From: Cryomorphaceae bacterium
GTDB taxonomy: Bacteria > Bacteroidota > Bacteroidia > Flavobacteriales_D > SKUL01
Reading direction: 5' to 3'
Length of the DNA stretch: 64,000 nt
Assembly (NCBI GenBank): GCA_007695365.1
Contig: REDV01000140.1
Span: forward strand, 1 to 64,000
How positions within the stretch are numbered: position 1 is the stretch's first letter; every line of letters begins with the position of its first letter. Positions 54,903 to 61,548 of the stretch are shown here, in pieces. A program made the position numbers and the translations under genes. The notes beneath the pieces were generated by a model, which ran no database searches, was not told the DNA's origin, and saw nothing but the letters and a program-made list of their open reading frames with translations.

Positions 54903-54986
54903 CACGTTGTTTTTTGAATCCGCATGGTACATTTTATTGTGCATGAAACGCAATTTGGTCAAGTCAGTCTCTTCGGGCACCACTCC

Positions 54987-55032
54987 TCTGATTTCCTGAC
55001 CTACCCCGGTATCGGCAACTCGCTGACCATTT
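54987..55032. repeat. Left direct repeat of the island (displaced copy of the pgm 3' end)
   Basis: Forty-six bases identical to 58777-58822. On the minus strand they read as the last ten sense codons of the phosphohexomutase gene (ending ..LPIPG), its TAG, and 14 bp of downstream flank, but here there is no gene attached. Identity ends abruptly on both sides. Confidence 0.9.
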
Positions 55033-55180: not shown

Positions 55181-55258
55181 ATGGAAATAAGCAGACTGAA
55201 ACCGAGAAAGGCGCTGAATAAAGCCTTTTTGAAACAACTACAAAAACTGACATGCTAG
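55181..55258 (+). pseudogene. Remnant resembling the N-terminus of a restriction-modification methylase
   Basis: A 25-codon open frame (ATG at 55181, TAG at 55256) with ISRLKPRKALNKAFLKQ. From memory, LKPxKALNKAFLK opens large Eco57I-like type IIG or ISP restriction-modification methylases of Bacteroidota. After this the frame ends and the TIGR02391 gene starts inside it (55252), so nearly all of such a gene would be missing. It may instead be a short leader peptide; the match is by recollection only. Confidence 0.45.
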
Positions 55259-55887
55259 ATTTTACTCATCTCCATCCTATTCTTGTGACAGACATTCAAA
55301 GCCATTTTGAAAATGGACTCTATACTGATGCTGTGCGTTCAGCAGTAATTACGTTTAATGATGAAGTCAAGAGGTACATCAAGAGCATTTACGAGTTGGA
55401 ATTGGATGGTGCTGATCTGATGCGTAAAACTTTTTCTAGGCAGAAGGGATTGCTAAAGTTTTCAGAGGATGATACTGAAACTACCCGAAATGTTCAAGAG
55501 GGGTACTGTACAATCATGGCCGGTGTTATGCAAGGAATCAGAAATCCAGTCACTCATGGAAACGAGTATTTCTCGGAGATTGAATGTGCAGAGATACTGG
55601 TGATGATTAGTCATTTATTGCGTATGTTCGACGGAGCTAAGGTTAATAATAGAATCCATTTGGATGGTCTTATATCCAAAATACGTTCTCTTGGGCCCGA
55701 ATCATTCATAAGAAGCGACAGAGGAGATAAAAGGCGATGGGTGGTCATCGAAGGCACCATTCACCACATTCATGACGGGCAAACTCACGGGCGTATTGGC
55801 AAGCTTAACGGGTACCTAAACAGTCCTCGTAAAGTAGATGGGAAAAACATAAGCAGTTACAAAAAAGGCAAAGAAATCGTTTCATAG
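55252..55887 (+). CDS. TIGR02391 (Hypoth_Ymh) domain protein with C-terminal extension
   Basis: 211 aa. Residues about 5-130 follow the TIGR02391 pattern: LHPILV, an Ala-Val-rich helix (DAVRSAVITFNDEVK), DGADLMRKTFS, a Glu-rich turn, EGYCTIMAGVMQGIRNPVTHG, then ILVMISHLLRMFD. The RNPxxHG segment resembles HEPN-fold active regions. The family is common in plasmids, prophages and defence islands, function unknown. The last 60 residues (RRWVVIEGTIHHIHDGQTHG... and a basic tail) do not belong to the domain. Starts inside the methylase-like remnant; followed 49 bp later by a methyltransferase-like gene. Confidence 0.8.
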   Translation: MLDFTHLHPILVTDIQSHFENGLYTDAVRSAVITFNDEVKRYIKSIYELELDGADLMRKTFSRQKGLLKFSEDDTETTRNVQEGYCTIMAGVMQGIRNPVTHGNEYFSEIECAEILVMISHLLRMFDGAKVNNRIHLDGLISKIRSLGPESFIRSDRGDKRRWVVIEGTIHHIHDGQTHGRIGKLNGYLNSPRKVDGKNISSYKKGKEIVS

Positions 55888-55936: not shown

Positions 55937-56620
55937 ATGAATCAATCAAAGCTATACGGCGCAGGAGACAAAATAATGAAGCTTGTTAAGGATGAAGTTA
56001 TTAGTATTCCTACGCACCAATTAAATATTCTGGATGTGGGTTTCGGAGATCCTGGTTCATTTTTTCTATTCTTCCACCTTTGTCCTTTCAATCAATATTG
56101 GGGAGTAGACCTGCTTGAAGAACAGAAATTTAAACTATCATACCCTGTAGCACTAATTAAAGAATCTGGTGAAGAATGTATTACCAATGGTTACGATTCT
56201 GTATATGTGAGATACTGTACTTTTTACAATTGCATTATTAAACAATTTAATAATAAAGTAAGTCCACTTCTTTCGGAGCAAGATTTCAAGAAAATTTTCA
56301 ACTTCCACTTTGAAATGCCTGTCCAGCAGTATTTGACTGATGGTGTCAAGAAGGATTATCGTCCGAATCTACTTGTGTTGTCTAATTTTCTTCATTGCTT
56401 GAATGACAAGAATGAAGCGGTTAATGTCTTTAGTAGCCTTATTGATTTTGTGAGTGATGATTGCTTTATTTTTATACAGGTATATACAGAGCCGCCGTTA
56501 GGGCAAACAAAGCTAGTATTCACAGAAGATGATTTAAAATTATTTGATTCACGTCTAAATGTTAAATGTAAGTATCCTGATGGGCAGTTTACCATAATTG
56601 CTGGAAGAAAGAGAGCGTAA
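55937..56620 (+). CDS. SAM-dependent methyltransferase-like protein
   Basis: 227 aa. LNILDVGFGDPGSFFLFF followed by YWGVDLLEE reads as motifs I and II of a class I methyltransferase, with an acidic residue ending the second strand. Later VLSNFLHCLND and CFIFIQVYTEP fit strands 4 and 5. No DPPY or NPPY motif, so a DNA amino-methylase is unlikely. A small-molecule, protein or RNA target is open. AT-rich, unlike host genes. Probably co-transcribed with the TIGR02391 gene and convergent with the three-gene operon. Confidence 0.65.
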   Translation: MNQSKLYGAGDKIMKLVKDEVISIPTHQLNILDVGFGDPGSFFLFFHLCPFNQYWGVDLLEEQKFKLSYPVALIKESGEECITNGYDSVYVRYCTFYNCIIKQFNNKVSPLLSEQDFKKIFNFHFEMPVQQYLTDGVKKDYRPNLLVLSNFLHCLNDKNEAVNVFSSLIDFVSDDCFIFIQVYTEPPLGQTKLVFTEDDLKLFDSRLNVKCKYPDGQFTIIAGRKRA

Positions 56621-56692: not shown

Positions 56693-57193
56693 CTATCCAT
56701 TTAATCGCTTTCTAAACGCCTTCATTTCAGCCTTTGTGCCGGGCGGAGAAATTGGCCACCGGGCTTTGCGTGCCATGATGGTTCTCAACTTTTCTGATTT
56801 TGTTCCGATGATGATCGTATGAGCTTTGTTATTCGGCTCTCCAAGATTTTCGGGATCTGAAAAAATGGGGTCGTACTCAACTTCTTGTTTTGGACAGTCT
56901 AATTGGTGGATATTTCGCCATTCCTCCACTTTGTGACTATAAACGAAGTAGTGCTTTGGGTCTTTAAAATTTGTTGTTCCCGTTTTGTACTGCTTCCCCA
57001 AGCGACTTAATGTTTCTTTGGGCGTTGAATACGCCGACCAGTCACAGGATTTATTGGGCCCCTTTTCAGGTGTGTTACCAAGCGCAGCCTCCTTGGGTTG
57101 AGGCTTTTGATCTTGGGTTTTGTGCGTTACATTCTGGTGATGAATAAAGAAATAAAGATCATCTGCATCAGGTATTTCTTCCTTTTCAAACAT
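56693..57193 (-). CDS. Island operon gene 3, unknown (DDLYxxIH / DWSAYSTP type)
   Basis: 166 aa. Begins near DADDLYFFIH, then a Lys/Gln/Pro linker, CDWSAYSTPKETL, a Lys-rich middle, and a C-terminal stretch with AHTIIIGTKSEKLR and MARKARW. I recall uncharacterised bacterial proteins that share this order (a DLYxRIH start, an S-V-D-W-x-x-Y-x-x-P box, an NxAHxxIxG box) but no name or function. No membrane or signal segment. Starts 7 bp after the stop of the gene before it. Confidence 0.65.
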   Translation of the reverse strand: MFEKEEIPDADDLYFFIHHQNVTHKTQDQKPQPKEAALGNTPEKGPNKSCDWSAYSTPKETLSRLGKQYKTGTTNFKDPKHYFVYSHKVEEWRNIHQLDCPKQEVEYDPIFSDPENLGEPNNKAHTIIIGTKSEKLRTIMARKARWPISPPGTKAEMKAFRKRLNG

Positions 57194-57200
57194 ACTGTCA

Positions 57201-57764
57201 TTAGCGGGAAAGGGCAGTCAGGTAACCTACTACATCATCAGGAAGCGGCTTATCCAATTCAATTCCTCCTTGCCGCCCCAATTCTTCTCTGTACTTATCG
57301 AAGTAGAAATATGCGATTTTGGATGCGGGATTTCGGAAATTTATCAGCATAAACGCTTCTGACAAACGCCAAACCACGTCAATCGATCCGTCGGGACACG
57401 CGTTGATTTCTGGAAAAGACAAAATCAGGTTCTGCTGGTCAGAGAGACTTTTAAATGCTTTTTTCAAAAAGGCTAAAGCATTCTCTATATTTTCTGATTC
57501 TGGTTTAAGCGCGTCATTCTCATCCCAATTGGCAACTAAGGATTCGAGCTCTGTTCTTTCTTCTTTCAGCTGTTGATTGAAATGATCATAGTCCTTGTTG
57601 GACGAACGTTCGAAACCCACTACAACTTTCATCTCGCTTCTTGGAGCATACGCCCATTCAGAGTCAAGAAACTCTTTGCTGTACCCTTGGTCGAGCGGCA
57701 ACTTGGGGCGATCGAAGGAGTGAATCTTGTCGGTTATAAAACGGTTATTGAATGTGGAGTTCAT
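57201..57764 (-). CDS. Island operon gene 2, unknown (nWDe / P-S-P-D type)
   Basis: 187 aa. Contains LESLVANWDENDA, then ENIENALAFLKKAF, then INACPDGSIDVVW and a strand-rich end. Similar small proteins (an nWdg core, a helix, and a PdGgi..eW strand) are widespread and often sit beside DLYxRIH-type proteins, as here; this is recollection rather than a search. No catalytic or membrane motif. Lies between operon genes 1 and 3 with gaps of 15 and 7 bp. Confidence 0.65.
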   Translation of the reverse strand: MNSTFNNRFITDKIHSFDRPKLPLDQGYSKEFLDSEWAYAPRSEMKVVVGFERSSNKDYDHFNQQLKEERTELESLVANWDENDALKPESENIENALAFLKKAFKSLSDQQNLILSFPEINACPDGSIDVVWRLSEAFMLINFRNPASKIAYFYFDKYREELGRQGGIELDKPLPDDVVGYLTALSR

Positions 57765-57779
57765 CTTTCAATTCAATTT

Positions 57780-58454
57780 TTATTGCTCAATGAATGTAAA
57801 AGCACCTGATTTGCGCATCTGATCTTCTTTTTTTAGTGCCCGATCAATATGCTGCTTTATTTCCTGCAACTGCGAGCGCGTTAAACTTACATAGAGCTCT
57901 TTCTGACCGTCAGCATCACGCCGTGCAAGTTTTAGTCGATGAATAATAATGGCATGTTCACATTCCAAAGATGGATCCTCGTCATCAAACAAGAGGCGAA
58001 TATCAGAAATCACTCTGCAAGAATCATAAACATGCTCTGATTCATACAACAAGCTGGTTGCCTTCAGTGCACGACGAATAACAATTGCTTCGTCGTATAA
58101 AAGCTGCACCCTTTCTGCGATTTTTTCCGCATTACCAAAATCCTTTTCTTGAAGCTGGTCACTCAATGAAGAGTAGAAGTCTTTAAAAAACACTTCTGAC
58201 GTATCATTTTGACGGTATCGGAATGAAATCATTCCTAAGATTGCCTCTATCGCATGCCTATGTTTTGTTTCTTTAATCTCGGCAATCCAATTAACAATAT
58301 CCTGAATTTTAGGCGTAGTATCTTTGCTTAATCCACCTTTAAAAAGATCACTTAGTTTATCAAACTCCTTCAGTTCCAAATCACCAATGGTAATAAATCC
58401 GGATAGATGATTTTCTGGAATGTTTATTCTGGCCACAGCAGGCAAGTTAACCAA
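57780..58454 (-). CDS. Island operon gene 1, unknown (ISDIRxxFD type)
   Basis: 224 aa. First half is a helical region (IQDIVNWIAEIKETKHRHAIE). Second half has ATSLLYESEHVYDSCRVI, SDIRLLFDDEDP, HAIIIHRLKLARRD and LYVSLTRSQLQEIKQHIDRA, a pattern of uncharacterised proteins with a 'xDxRPxFD' strand pair and a final helix. It heads the minus-strand operon of three genes. No signal peptide or membrane helix, so cytosolic. Confidence 0.65.
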   Translation of the reverse strand: MVNLPAVARINIPENHLSGFITIGDLELKEFDKLSDLFKGGLSKDTTPKIQDIVNWIAEIKETKHRHAIEAILGMISFRYRQNDTSEVFFKDFYSSLSDQLQEKDFGNAEKIAERVQLLYDEAIVIRRALKATSLLYESEHVYDSCRVISDIRLLFDDEDPSLECEHAIIIHRLKLARRDADGQKELYVSLTRSQLQEIKQHIDRALKKEDQMRKSGAFTFIEQ

Positions 58455-58716: not shown

Positions 58717-58776
58717 ATACCCCCGCTGCTGCGCGAAAAACAATTCGACGCAGTCCATTCCTTAACGAACCACACG

Positions 58777-58822
58777 TCTGATTTCCTGACCTACCCCGGT
58801 ATCGGCAACTCGCTGACCATTT
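58777..58822. repeat. Right direct repeat of the island (native pgm 3' end)
   Basis: Second copy of the 46-bp repeat at 54987-55032. Here bases 58791-58822 are the genuine end of the phosphohexomutase gene and the other 14 bp are its downstream flank. Confidence 0.9.
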
Positions 58823-60527
58823 GTTCGGTGCGACGGCCGAGATCTGTCCAAACGTTGTGGAAGTTGGCGGTGGAGGAAAGCGGCGCTTTCAGGCTGAAGT
58901 AGAATTTGATTTTGGGCTCGGTGCCGGAGGGGCGGGCTGTAATCTTGCTGCCATCCTGCAGCACAAATTGCAACACATTGCTTTTGGGCAATCCGATGGG
59001 TTCGCGCTGGCCATTTTCAAGGTTCAGCACCTCCTGCGACTGAAAGTCTTTGCGAAGCATCACAGGCACACCGCCTAATTGTTGCGGCGGCTGGGTGCGC
59101 AGCGTTTCCATCAACATTTTGATTTCCTCCGCGCCATCTCGACCTTTGCGGGTAACGGAAACCAGCGATTCACGGTAACAGCCGTAGCGTGCGTAAATAT
59201 CCAGCAGCAATGCATAAAAACTGCTGCCCCGGCTTTTGGCCCACGCGGCAGCTTCGCACAGCATGACCGACGAAATCACGGCGTCCTTGTCGCGGACCAA
59301 ATCGCCCACGAGGTAGCCGTAGCTCTCTTCGCCCCCGCCAATAAAAACCTCCGAGCCTTCTTTGCGCGCAATCACGTCGGCAATGTACTTGAAGCCGGTG
59401 AGCGTTTCGTAGGTGTTTACGCCGTAATCGCGGGCTATTTCCCCGAGTAAATCAGAAGTTACCACCGTTTTGCAAACAAACTCGTTGCCCTGCAGTTTGC
59501 CCAACTCCTTCCACTTTTCGAGCAGGTAGTAAATCAGCACCGAAGCAGCCTGGTTGCCGTTGAGAAGTTCCAGCTCACCCTTCAGATTGCGCACGGCGAT
59601 ACCCACGCGGTCGGCGTCGGGATCGGTACCGAGAATAATATCCGCACCGGATTGTTCACCCTGCGCAAGCGCCATGGCAAGGGCTTCGCGCTCCTCGGGG
59701 TTGGGCGATTTTACAGTAGAGAAAGCCGGGTCGGGATGGCTTTGTTCCTTTACAAGGGCAGTGTGCGTAAAACCGGCTTCGCGAAGCGCATCGGGAACCA
59801 GCATCACAGAAGTACCATGCAATGGGGTGAAAACCACCTTCAATTCGGAGGCTGCCTGAGCGTCGTTCAGGAGGTACAAGTTGCGGATGGCCTGCAAATA
59901 CATGCGGTCCATTTCCTTTCCAAGCACCTGTATAAGCGACTCGTCAACATCGGTTCGCACCTGTTCGATGCCTTCCATTTTTCGCACTTCGGCGATGATG
60001 TTGGTGTCGTGCGGAGCCACAATCTGCCCGCCATCGTTCCAGTACACCTTGTAGCCGTTGTACTCGGGGGGGTTGTGCGATGCCGTAACTACAATGCCCG
60101 TGGTGCAGCCCAATTGGCGCACGGCAAACGACAACTCTGGCGTGGGTCGCAGGCTCTCAAACAGGTAGGCCTGCACACCGTTGGCTGCAAACACCTCGGC
60201 GGCGGTACGCGCAAACTCCGCGCTGTTGTACCTGCAATCAAAAGCAATGGCTGCTTTTGGATTTTCAATGCCGCATTGCCGGATGTAATTGCAAAGCCCT
60301 TGTGTAGCCATGGCAATGGTGTATCGGTTTACGCGGTTGGTGCCGGGGCCCATGATTCCGCGCAAACCACCGGTGCCAAATTCAAGGTCGCGGTAAAAAG
60401 CCTCGGTGAGCTCGTCCGATTGGTCGGCCATCATCTGCTGCACCTGTTGGCGTGTTTGTTCGTCGTAAGGAGCTTGTGTCCAGCTTTGCGCTCTTTGCAG
60501 AACGCGCTCTTCGGTTGGTTGACCCAT
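58791..60527 (-). CDS. Phosphoglucomutase/phosphomannomutase family protein
   Basis: 578 aa from the ATG at 60527; upstream codons overlap rfbB. Interconverts hexose 1- and 6-phosphates. The phospho-Ser is Ser150 in TASHNPPEYNGYK, the metal loop is GTDPDADRVG, the sugar loop GGGEESYGYL, and the phosphate-binding RPSGTEPKIKFY is near the end. The beta form of the long PgcA/PMM-2 type is expected. In the dTDP-sugar operon it can supply glucose-1-phosphate. Its 3' end is the island's duplicated target. Confidence 0.93.
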   Translation of the reverse strand: MGQPTEERVLQRAQSWTQAPYDEQTRQQVQQMMADQSDELTEAFYRDLEFGTGGLRGIMGPGTNRVNRYTIAMATQGLCNYIRQCGIENPKAAIAFDCRYNSAEFARTAAEVFAANGVQAYLFESLRPTPELSFAVRQLGCTTGIVVTASHNPPEYNGYKVYWNDGGQIVAPHDTNIIAEVRKMEGIEQVRTDVDESLIQVLGKEMDRMYLQAIRNLYLLNDAQAASELKVVFTPLHGTSVMLVPDALREAGFTHTALVKEQSHPDPAFSTVKSPNPEEREALAMALAQGEQSGADIILGTDPDADRVGIAVRNLKGELELLNGNQAASVLIYYLLEKWKELGKLQGNEFVCKTVVTSDLLGEIARDYGVNTYETLTGFKYIADVIARKEGSEVFIGGGEESYGYLVGDLVRDKDAVISSVMLCEAAAWAKSRGSSFYALLLDIYARYGCYRESLVSVTRKGRDGAEEIKMLMETLRTQPPQQLGGVPVMLRKDFQSQEVLNLENGQREPIGLPKSNVLQFVLQDGSKITARPSGTEPKIKFYFSLKAPLSSTANFHNVWTDLGRRTEQMVSELPIPG

Positions 60528-60528
60528 G

Positions 60529-61548
60529 CTAAGCGGTGAATTTTTTAACGTACCACTGTACGGTTTTTTCAATTCCTGATTCAAAGTTTTCGTCGGCGCG
60601 CCAGCCCAGCTCACCTTCAATTTTGGTGGCGTCAATGGCGTAGCGCTGGTCGTGACCCGGCCGGTCTGTTACAAAGTTGATGAGCCGCTCATAGCTCCCT
60701 TCTGCATCGGGGTGAATGCGGTTGAGCATCTCGCAAATGGTGCGGGCTATGTAGAGGTTGTTGCGCTCGTTTCGTCCGCCAATGTTGTAGGTTTCGCCCT
60801 CGCTGCCTTTTTCAAAGGCGAGTAAAATTCCCTTGCAGTGATCCAGCACATAGAGCCAATCGCGAATGTTGCTGCCGTCGCCATAAATGGGAATAGGCTG
60901 TGCAGACAAGGCCTTGCGGATGATGGTTGGAATGAGTTTCTCATCGTGCTGCTTCGGACCGTAATTGTTGGAGCAGTTGGTGGTAACCACTCCCAGCCCG
61001 AAAGTGTGAAAATAGCTACGCACAAAATGGTCGCTGCTGGCTTTGCTGGCGCTGTACGGACTGTTGGGTGCGTAGGGAGTGGTTTCGGAAAAGAGACCCG
61101 TTTCGCCCAGGCTTCCGTAAACCTCGTCGGTAGATACGTGCAGGAAGCGCGCGTGTTCCATACCCGCTTTGCGCTGATGCGGCGCGTCCATCCAGTACTT
61201 TCGGGCCACTTCCAGCAGGTTAAAGGTGCCCACCACGTTGGTTTGCACAAAAGCCTTGGGGCCTGTAATGCTGTTGTCCACGTGCGATTCGGCCGCGAAG
61301 TGAATCACGCCGTCAATTCGGTGCTCGCTGAAAATGCGCTCAACCCATTCGGTATCGCAAATATCTCCCTGCACAAAGGTGTAGCGGGGGTGGTTTTCAA
61401 CTTCCTTTAGATTTTGAAGATTGCCGGCATAGGTGAGCAAATCGAGGTTCACGACGTGAACATCGGGTCTGGTTTCCAGCAGATGCGGAACGAAATTGGA
61501 GCCAATAAATCCTGCTCCTCCTGTAACGAGTATATGGGTAGGGTTCAT
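60529..61548 (-). CDS. rfbB: dTDP-glucose 4,6-dehydratase
   Basis: 339 aa from the ATG at 61548. Extended SDR enzyme making dTDP-4-keto-6-deoxyglucose. NAD-binding TGGAGFIGSN at residues 9-18, the catalytic STDEVYG strand and YSASKASSD loop present. The frame is open for 108 more codons upstream, but they overlap rfbD. The 4-bp overlap with rfbD and a 1-bp gap to the mutase gene show one operon. rfbA and rfbC are not in the window. Confidence 0.95.
   Translation of the reverse strand: MNPTHILVTGGAGFIGSNFVPHLLETRPDVHVVNLDLLTYAGNLQNLKEVENHPRYTFVQGDICDTEWVERIFSEHRIDGVIHFAAESHVDNSITGPKAFVQTNVVGTFNLLEVARKYWMDAPHQRKAGMEHARFLHVSTDEVYGSLGETGLFSETTPYAPNSPYSASKASSDHFVRSYFHTFGLGVVTTNCSNNYGPKQHDEKLIPTIIRKALSAQPIPIYGDGSNIRDWLYVLDHCKGILLAFEKGSEGETYNIGGRNERNNLYIARTICEMLNRIHPDAEGSYERLINFVTDRPGHDQRYAIDATKIEGELGWRADENFESGIEKTVQWYVKKFTA

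Follow-up and report, generated by a model that had tools for sequence, protein, structure and literature searches.

The window, that is, the whole stretch of 64,000 nucleotides that was analysed, contains on its forward strand a frame of 25 codons (55181-55258) which translates as MEISRLKPRKALNKAFLKQLQKLTC and is closed by a stop codon lying inside the next open reading frame (ORF; 55252-55887), with an overlap of 7 nt that covers the start codon of the latter; the earlier note on this DNA, which had described a 25-codon frame ending as the next gene begins, gave the coordinates correctly. The frame is located just inside the left end of an island of about 3.7 kb, comprised between 46-bp identical direct repeats, whose GC content is 40.3%, compared to 50.5% for the remainder of the window. 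The features of the locus are the following:

54940..55032, no strand: left copy of the direct repeat, attL-like, with 46 identical bp (54987-55032) and, to their left, a diverged arm
55181..55234, forward: almost certain 5' remnant of a type IIG Eco57I-type restriction-methylase gene, codons 1-18 (blastn and peptide match)
55235..55258, forward: non-homologous tail, QLQKLTC and stop, reaching past the junction into the beginning of the following ORF (translation and 60-nt comparison)
55252..55887, forward: ORF of 211 aa with an N-terminal HEPN-superfamily Ymh domain, PF09509, overlapping the remnant frame by 7 nt (Pfam)
55937..56620, forward: orphan ORF of 227 aa (Pfam DUF4441 at 8e-4, under its cut-off)
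56693..57193, reverse: g166, third gene of a module (gene order kept among the homologues in L209, L210 and L218)
57201..57764, reverse: g187, second gene of the module (PADLOC PDC-M32A, 3.9e-4)
57780..58454, reverse: g224, first gene of the module (homologues in other genomes and in a viral contig)
58730..58822, no strand: right copy of the direct repeat, attR-like, identical over 58777-58822 to the left one
58791..60635, reverse: phosphoglucomutase-like (PGM-like) gene, at the 3' end of which the island appears to have inserted (PGM_PMM I-III exceed the Pfam cut-off)

The island, its repeats and its cargo

The direct repeat extends over 93 nt (80% identical) at both ends of the island, and its diverged left arm is identical at 22 of 39 positions, a value reached in none of 20,000 shuffles; a search of the genome itself with the left end of the island returned the two copies of the repeat only. 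Since the PGM-like gene ends within the right copy (58777-58822), which supplies its last codons and its stop, the repeats look like attL and attR, and site-specific integration at this 3' end would be the likeliest route by which the island entered. Integrative elements with attL and attR at the 3' end of a protein-coding gene form a general class, which the island resembles in its 46-bp identical repeat, one copy being the end of a gene, in its low GC content and in its accessory cargo; it differs from such elements in having no detected integrase family and in measuring just 3.7 kb between the repeats. Indeed, none of the five ORFs of the island matched an integrase family (Pfam, E<=1), the three PF00589 matches of the genome lying on contigs C88, C87 and C28 only; Rfam gave no match over the island, and the core of the repeat was not found in viral contigs. 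The island is very probably an integrated element, and we infer that its integration was driven by an integrase that it no longer carries.

The cargo now present, consisting of the HEPN/Ymh ORF and of a trio of genes with a distant likeness to PDC-M32, appears defence-like as far as its sequence goes. The 227-aa orphan ORF occurs, among 395 genomes of the phylum, in its own genome only; it contains a DVGFGDPG-like motif, which may point to a class I SAM methyltransferase fold. Homologues of g224 are present in three other genomes among the 395 searched and in one viral contig; the order g224-g187-g166 is conserved in two of these genomes (G268, locus L209; G440, locus L210) and in the viral contig (L218), while the third genome (G322, L211) has a g224 homologue with different neighbours. 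In the viral contig the module adjoins putative portal and large-terminase genes. A search of plasmids for g224, g187 and the viral-contig homologue of g224 gave no match.

As to the likeness of this module to PDC-M32, a candidate defence system made up of the components A and B, g187 matches the C-terminal part only of the PDC-M32A profile (3.9e-4), and its three homologues in L209, L210 and L218 match PDC-M32A at 1.1e-6, 5.1e-5 and 4.8e-3, respectively; for g166 of the window PADLOC gave no match at E<=1, and the L209 homologue is the sole g166 homologue to match PDC-M32B (7e-4). A further point of resemblance is the carriage by a viral contig, PDC-M32 being placed in a Sinorhizobium prophage in the one paper found under that name (PMC12429752); on the other hand, the scores are weak, an extra gene, g224, lies ahead of the pair, and g187 has 187 aa where PDC-M32A has 375. 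The module was not filed as PDC-M32, and may at most be considered distantly similar to it. The predicted structure of g187 (2 sequences; pLDDT 36) had too low a confidence for a fold search.

Homology of the first 18 codons and the point at which it ends

When the 25-codon peptide alone was compared with Pfam, NCBIfam and PADLOC, no match was obtained; the peptide being too short for profile searches, its stretch KALNKAFLK was back-translated to a degenerate DNA pattern, which was scanned against 84,980 species genomes, one per species. At least 119 loci were found, and the 9-mer is in frame in 116 of those listed; in 114 of these 116 it belongs to the N-terminus of one methylase family, continuing KALNKAFLKVKPNRTEIE... 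or close to it. Among the 119 listed loci, the three without an in-frame 9-mer and the two chance matches (L013 and L114) were left out of the family; about one chance match is expected, as we calculate from 2^-39 per position over the two strands of 257 Gb, assuming that the bases are equally frequent. The 114 listed family loci comprise 46 complete ORFs of more than 1,100 residues, 17 with an internal stop, and 51 running off the retrieved DNA, which cannot be classed as either complete or broken; the single viral-contig locus holds a family member of 1,225 residues.

The N-termini of all 46 complete proteins from the listed loci match the window peptide. Since these proteins were chosen by nine residues of that very peptide, the independent evidence resides in residues 1-9, which lie outside the search word, and in the position of the word itself: the window peptide opens with MEISRLKPR and the family member L101 with MEINRLKPR, and KALNKAFLK begins at residue 10 in both. 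Overall, 17 of 18 residues are identical between the window peptide and L101, the best value among the 46 complete proteins. At the DNA level, blastn of the left end of the island against the loci retrieved at that stage aligned 55181-55234 with L045 at 49 of 54 nt (E 7e-15; the best among the matches listed, the window's own copies and the direct repeat excluded) and with L039 and L101 at 48 of 54 nt, the alignment ending exactly at 55181 and 55234.

As to the identity of the family, L101 (1,210 aa) contains DUF7149, DUF7814, Eco57I and TaqI_C domains, all over the Pfam cut-off, matches the PADLOC profile REase_MTase_IIG from its first position (3.9e-250) and, when compared with solved structures, finds TaqI, BseCI and a further adenine methylase as matches. 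On these grounds, and given the agreement of the 46 N-termini, the remark in the earlier note that LKPRKALNKAFLK resembles the opening of large Eco57I-type type IIG methylases of Bacteroidota proved right, and its description of the frame as a methylase fragment is borne out by the nucleotide match to L045 and the peptide match to L101; a lack of hits to methylase N-termini, which it had named as speaking against this description, was not what was observed. That the frame arose by chance and the resemblance is a coincidence has a probability close to nil: the frame has only 25 codons, the peptide alone has no profile match in the three collections, and a whole-protein HMMER comparison within its own genome scores it at E=0.04, but the blastn match within the retrieved loci, the affiliation of nearly all listed in-frame 9-mers to one methylase family and the agreement of the nine flanking residues stand against it; the match in the DNA rules this explanation out, and the frame is not a chance frame.

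The likeness to the type IIG Eco57I family (PDLC03612; PF23653, PF25120, PF07669, PF12950) is thus confined to the first 18 codons, the position of the start included, whereas everything that a full enzyme has past codon 18 is missing, so that the window holds no nuclease, methylase or target-recognition part of it. Indeed, when the 46 complete proteins were compared with the window by tblastn, the best 12 matches all consisted of residues 1-18 at 55181-55234, and the window contains no intact ORF of this type, which would span about 1,200 residues and include the Eco57I methylase and TaqI_C domains. A frameshifted and otherwise whole methylase was also considered and rejected, since these best matches show no further methylase sequence in the window. 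The feature is therefore a remnant of the type IIG family and not a member of it, and it is almost certainly a type IIG gene from which it derives.

The remaining part of the frame, QLQKLTC and the stop, is not methylase sequence. In the 60 nt past 55234, compared without gaps, the window is identical at 16-23 positions to its six best relatives and at no more than 23 to any of 113 usable family loci (those with enough flank, obtained by a selection rule slightly unlike that which gave the 114); in 477 family pairs that are comparably similar over the preceding block (46-51 of 54 nt identical), the following 60 nt are identical at 35-60 positions, and none falls as low as the window. Given this difference, the homology truly breaks off at 55234. 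Some similarity past 55234 suggested by MAFFT, which requires a 5-nt gap, was dismissed in view of the same ungapped comparison. The 5' edge is less distinctive: 4-6 of the 20 nt upstream of 55181 are identical for the window, compared to 3-20 in family pairs (5th percentile 6), so that the DNA 20-40 nt upstream, unlike any methylase leader, is weakly odd in relation to such pairs.

By itself the stub is an ordinary gene remnant, and such leftovers are ordinary; it illustrates that 18 codons can reveal a lost restriction system, homology confirming the origin. When its own genome was queried with L101, the stub (E 0.04) and a match on contig C100 (E 0.21) were returned, and nothing more up to E 10. 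The latter (C100:759-836 of genome G000, retrieved as L203 and L213) is a 26-residue match to the C-terminal part of L101; extended to 49 residues, it aligns to the extreme C-termini of methylase family members, and in comparison with L019 it gives 37 residues at 59%, reaching the last residue of that protein. It is located beyond an R-subunit-like ORF, among what look like type I restriction genes, and it may, on this weak match, be a second scar of an Eco57I-type methylase gene.

The HEPN gene at the junction and the origin of the probable scar

The ORF into which the stub runs carries the Ymh domain well over threshold (PF09509, 84.2 bits against a Pfam cut-off of 25; TIGR02391, 53.7 against 39.45) and matches PD-Lambda-3_B (7e-13) and Aga_HEPN (3e-8) in PADLOC. 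The catalytic-type motif of HEPN proteins has the spacing R-x4-6-H; by sequence, RNPVTH at residues 97-102 is a motif of this type, and R-x4-H is present in all 11 aligned Ymh homologues, ten of them with RN and one with RH (RHPLQH). The product thus resembles the Ymh proteins of the HEPN superfamily (PF09509, TIGR02391) in having both the domain and the RNxxxH motif, and differs from its homologues in that the domain stands at the very N-terminus: it begins at residue 6, with about 80 residues after it, whereas 28-428 other residues stand before it in 9 of 10 homologues. This suggests that the event which cut the methylase gene may also have removed the 5' part of the HEPN gene at the junction. 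Its closest homologue is 36% identical over the domain; relatives were found in 12 other genomes among 395, in 9 plasmids and in one viral contig, none of them informative as to a leader, and a structure prediction of the ORF (1 sequence; pLDDT 34.5) was set aside for its low confidence. Literature searches for TIGR02391 and DUF7149 returned no paper.

The most probable account of the junction is that a type IIG gene (Eco57I/DUF7149, about 1,200 residues) was cut after codon 18 by illegitimate recombination or deletion, whereby these codons, together with the start codon, were joined out of frame to the HEPN (Ymh) gene. The 25-codon frame is, in this case, a scar rather than a gene, and most likely functionless itself; that the stub is a non-functional scar and not a working leader can be held with good confidence. 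A different proposal, which we consider very unlikely, is that the captured 18-codon block sets the expression of the HEPN gene by termination-reinitiation at the 7-nt overlap. The ATG is indeed kept, the frame is open up to its stop, which falls within the beginning of the HEPN ORF, and the homology to L045 is both well retained (49 of 54 nt) and sharply delimited at the ATG; however, a recent event would equally give high identity, and a sharp start at the ATG is ordinary in family pairs, the upstream DNA of which diverges fast too. Moreover, a stand-alone 18-codon block was not found among the 119 loci listed or in the single viral-contig locus, nor was a loose match to the motif (7 to 9 residues) found near 13 other loci with Ymh homologues; a leader conserved on its own in relatives, which the earlier note had named as the outcome contrary to its reading, finds no support in these three sets. 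Beyond the 7-nt overlap, a leader has nothing positive in its favour. The joint reading, of a methylase remnant that is now a scar within an integrated island, appears probable.

How the HEPN gene came to its present position is a separate question: it may have been an old operon partner of the methylase gene, have replaced it, or have arrived already joined to the remnant. The first of these histories, in which HEPN/Ymh accompanied the type IIG gene and the body of the methylase was deleted with nothing exchanged, appears unlikely. The remnant and the HEPN ORF are adjacent and on the same strand, and a table in Anantharaman et al. 2013 (PMC3710099) has Ymh among the HEPN families 'In operon with R-M'; nevertheless, an HMM built from 11 sequences found no Ymh ORF (E<=1) in the 119 listed methylase-motif loci, 33 of the 46 complete genes having at least 500 nt of downstream DNA, and the loci extending to 8 kb at most, so that a more distant Ymh gene would be missed.

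With respect to the insertion site, the genome of the same genus (81% complete) lacks in its assembly both the PGM orthologue and the region of the RR gene, its histidine kinase orthologue stops at a contig edge, and a query with the DNA of the locus gave chance-level matches only (best E 0.11). Among 26 other, more distant genomes with a listed strong orthologue locus, 20 PGM 3' neighbourhoods were examined: the repeat of the PGM 3' end was not found in 19 of them, one 16-nt match occurring in L176 (E 9e-4), and neither the methylase nor island genes were found in any of the 20. The same-locus search for a full-length methylase advised in the earlier note has therefore found none in these more distant neighbourhoods. 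Since no close relative shows this locus with an intact methylase gene or devoid of the island, neither insertion nor exchange is demonstrated, and the entry of the island at the PGM-like 3' end is a matter of inference.

The lack of a methylase in all 20 neighbourhoods would also suit an import of the scar, in which remnant and HEPN gene arrived pre-joined and there was never a functional methylase at the pgm site; elsewhere in the phylum methylase remnants do occur outside recognised islands (L053, L081), and no direct evidence was found against such an import, which is a serious possibility, albeit a rather doubtful one. The joined form is untraceable, close homologues of the HEPN ORF being absent elsewhere.

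In one consistent history the island would have lost its type IIG system and kept or gained other defence genes. That one defence was exchanged for another inside the island is conceivable and falls somewhat short of probable; of the two parts of the proposal in the earlier note, the methylase fragment stands, and the swap of the methylase for the present cargo is plausible but not demonstrated, no empty or methylase-bearing allele having been found. The further suggestion that the site is a defence turnover spot is plausible and unproven: the other defence-like genes of the island and its attL/attR-like ends fit with turnover without proving it. A more specific version, with the PGM 3' end as the attachment site of a small integrase-less element in which HEPN replaced the type IIG gene beside a mobile PDC-M32-like trio, is quite unlikely; the 54-nt stub, the DNA of which is highly conserved across the phylum, could in such a swap have served as a homology arm. 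In the literature, replacement of R-M by another defence system is described at the genome level in Acinetobacter baumannii (PMC12421847), and many methyltransferase genes are placed on mobile elements in the Bacteroides fragilis group (PMC10333322); a literature search, made otherwise than by organism, returned no report of this locus. All in all the scar is an ordinary one, and the island around it is of mild interest; flanked by repeats, devoid of an integrase and loaded with HEPN and PDC-M32-like cargo, the island offers a place where defence turnover could be studied when further genomes of the genus become available.

Comparable remnants in other genomes

Remnants of R-M genes, and truncated R-M genes, are a general phenomenon in bacterial genomes. 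In four of the 114 listed family loci the homology likewise ends long before the available DNA does, foreign DNA then following, after 123 nt in L093, 201 nt in L081, 339 nt in L053 and 1,435 nt in L103; in L082 it extends over 294 of 391 nt. The breakpoints differ from one remnant to another, which is what decay, unlike a conserved leader, would produce. What the window shares with L053, L081, L093 and L103 is a short 5' remnant followed by foreign DNA; it differs from R-M remnants in general in that its stub lies inside a direct-repeat-flanked island and that the frame runs into the start of a defence-type gene.

Two side observations concern the surroundings of the family loci. The heptamer CCAACGC, absent from the window, occurs in the 250 nt preceding the methylase in 22 of 109 family loci (scanned on one strand; for example L022, L039, L045, L077 and L101), compared to 81 of 2,380 random pieces, which were scanned on both strands, the excess not being independent because the family loci are related; its surroundings upstream of the methylase genes are hairpin-like and attC-like. 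In L093, the 5' remnant is located just outside a 24-nt direct repeat (L093:1715 and L093:5141) that bounds a segment of 3.4 kb, containing two small genes and a putative P-loop NTPase-like (KAP-like) gene.
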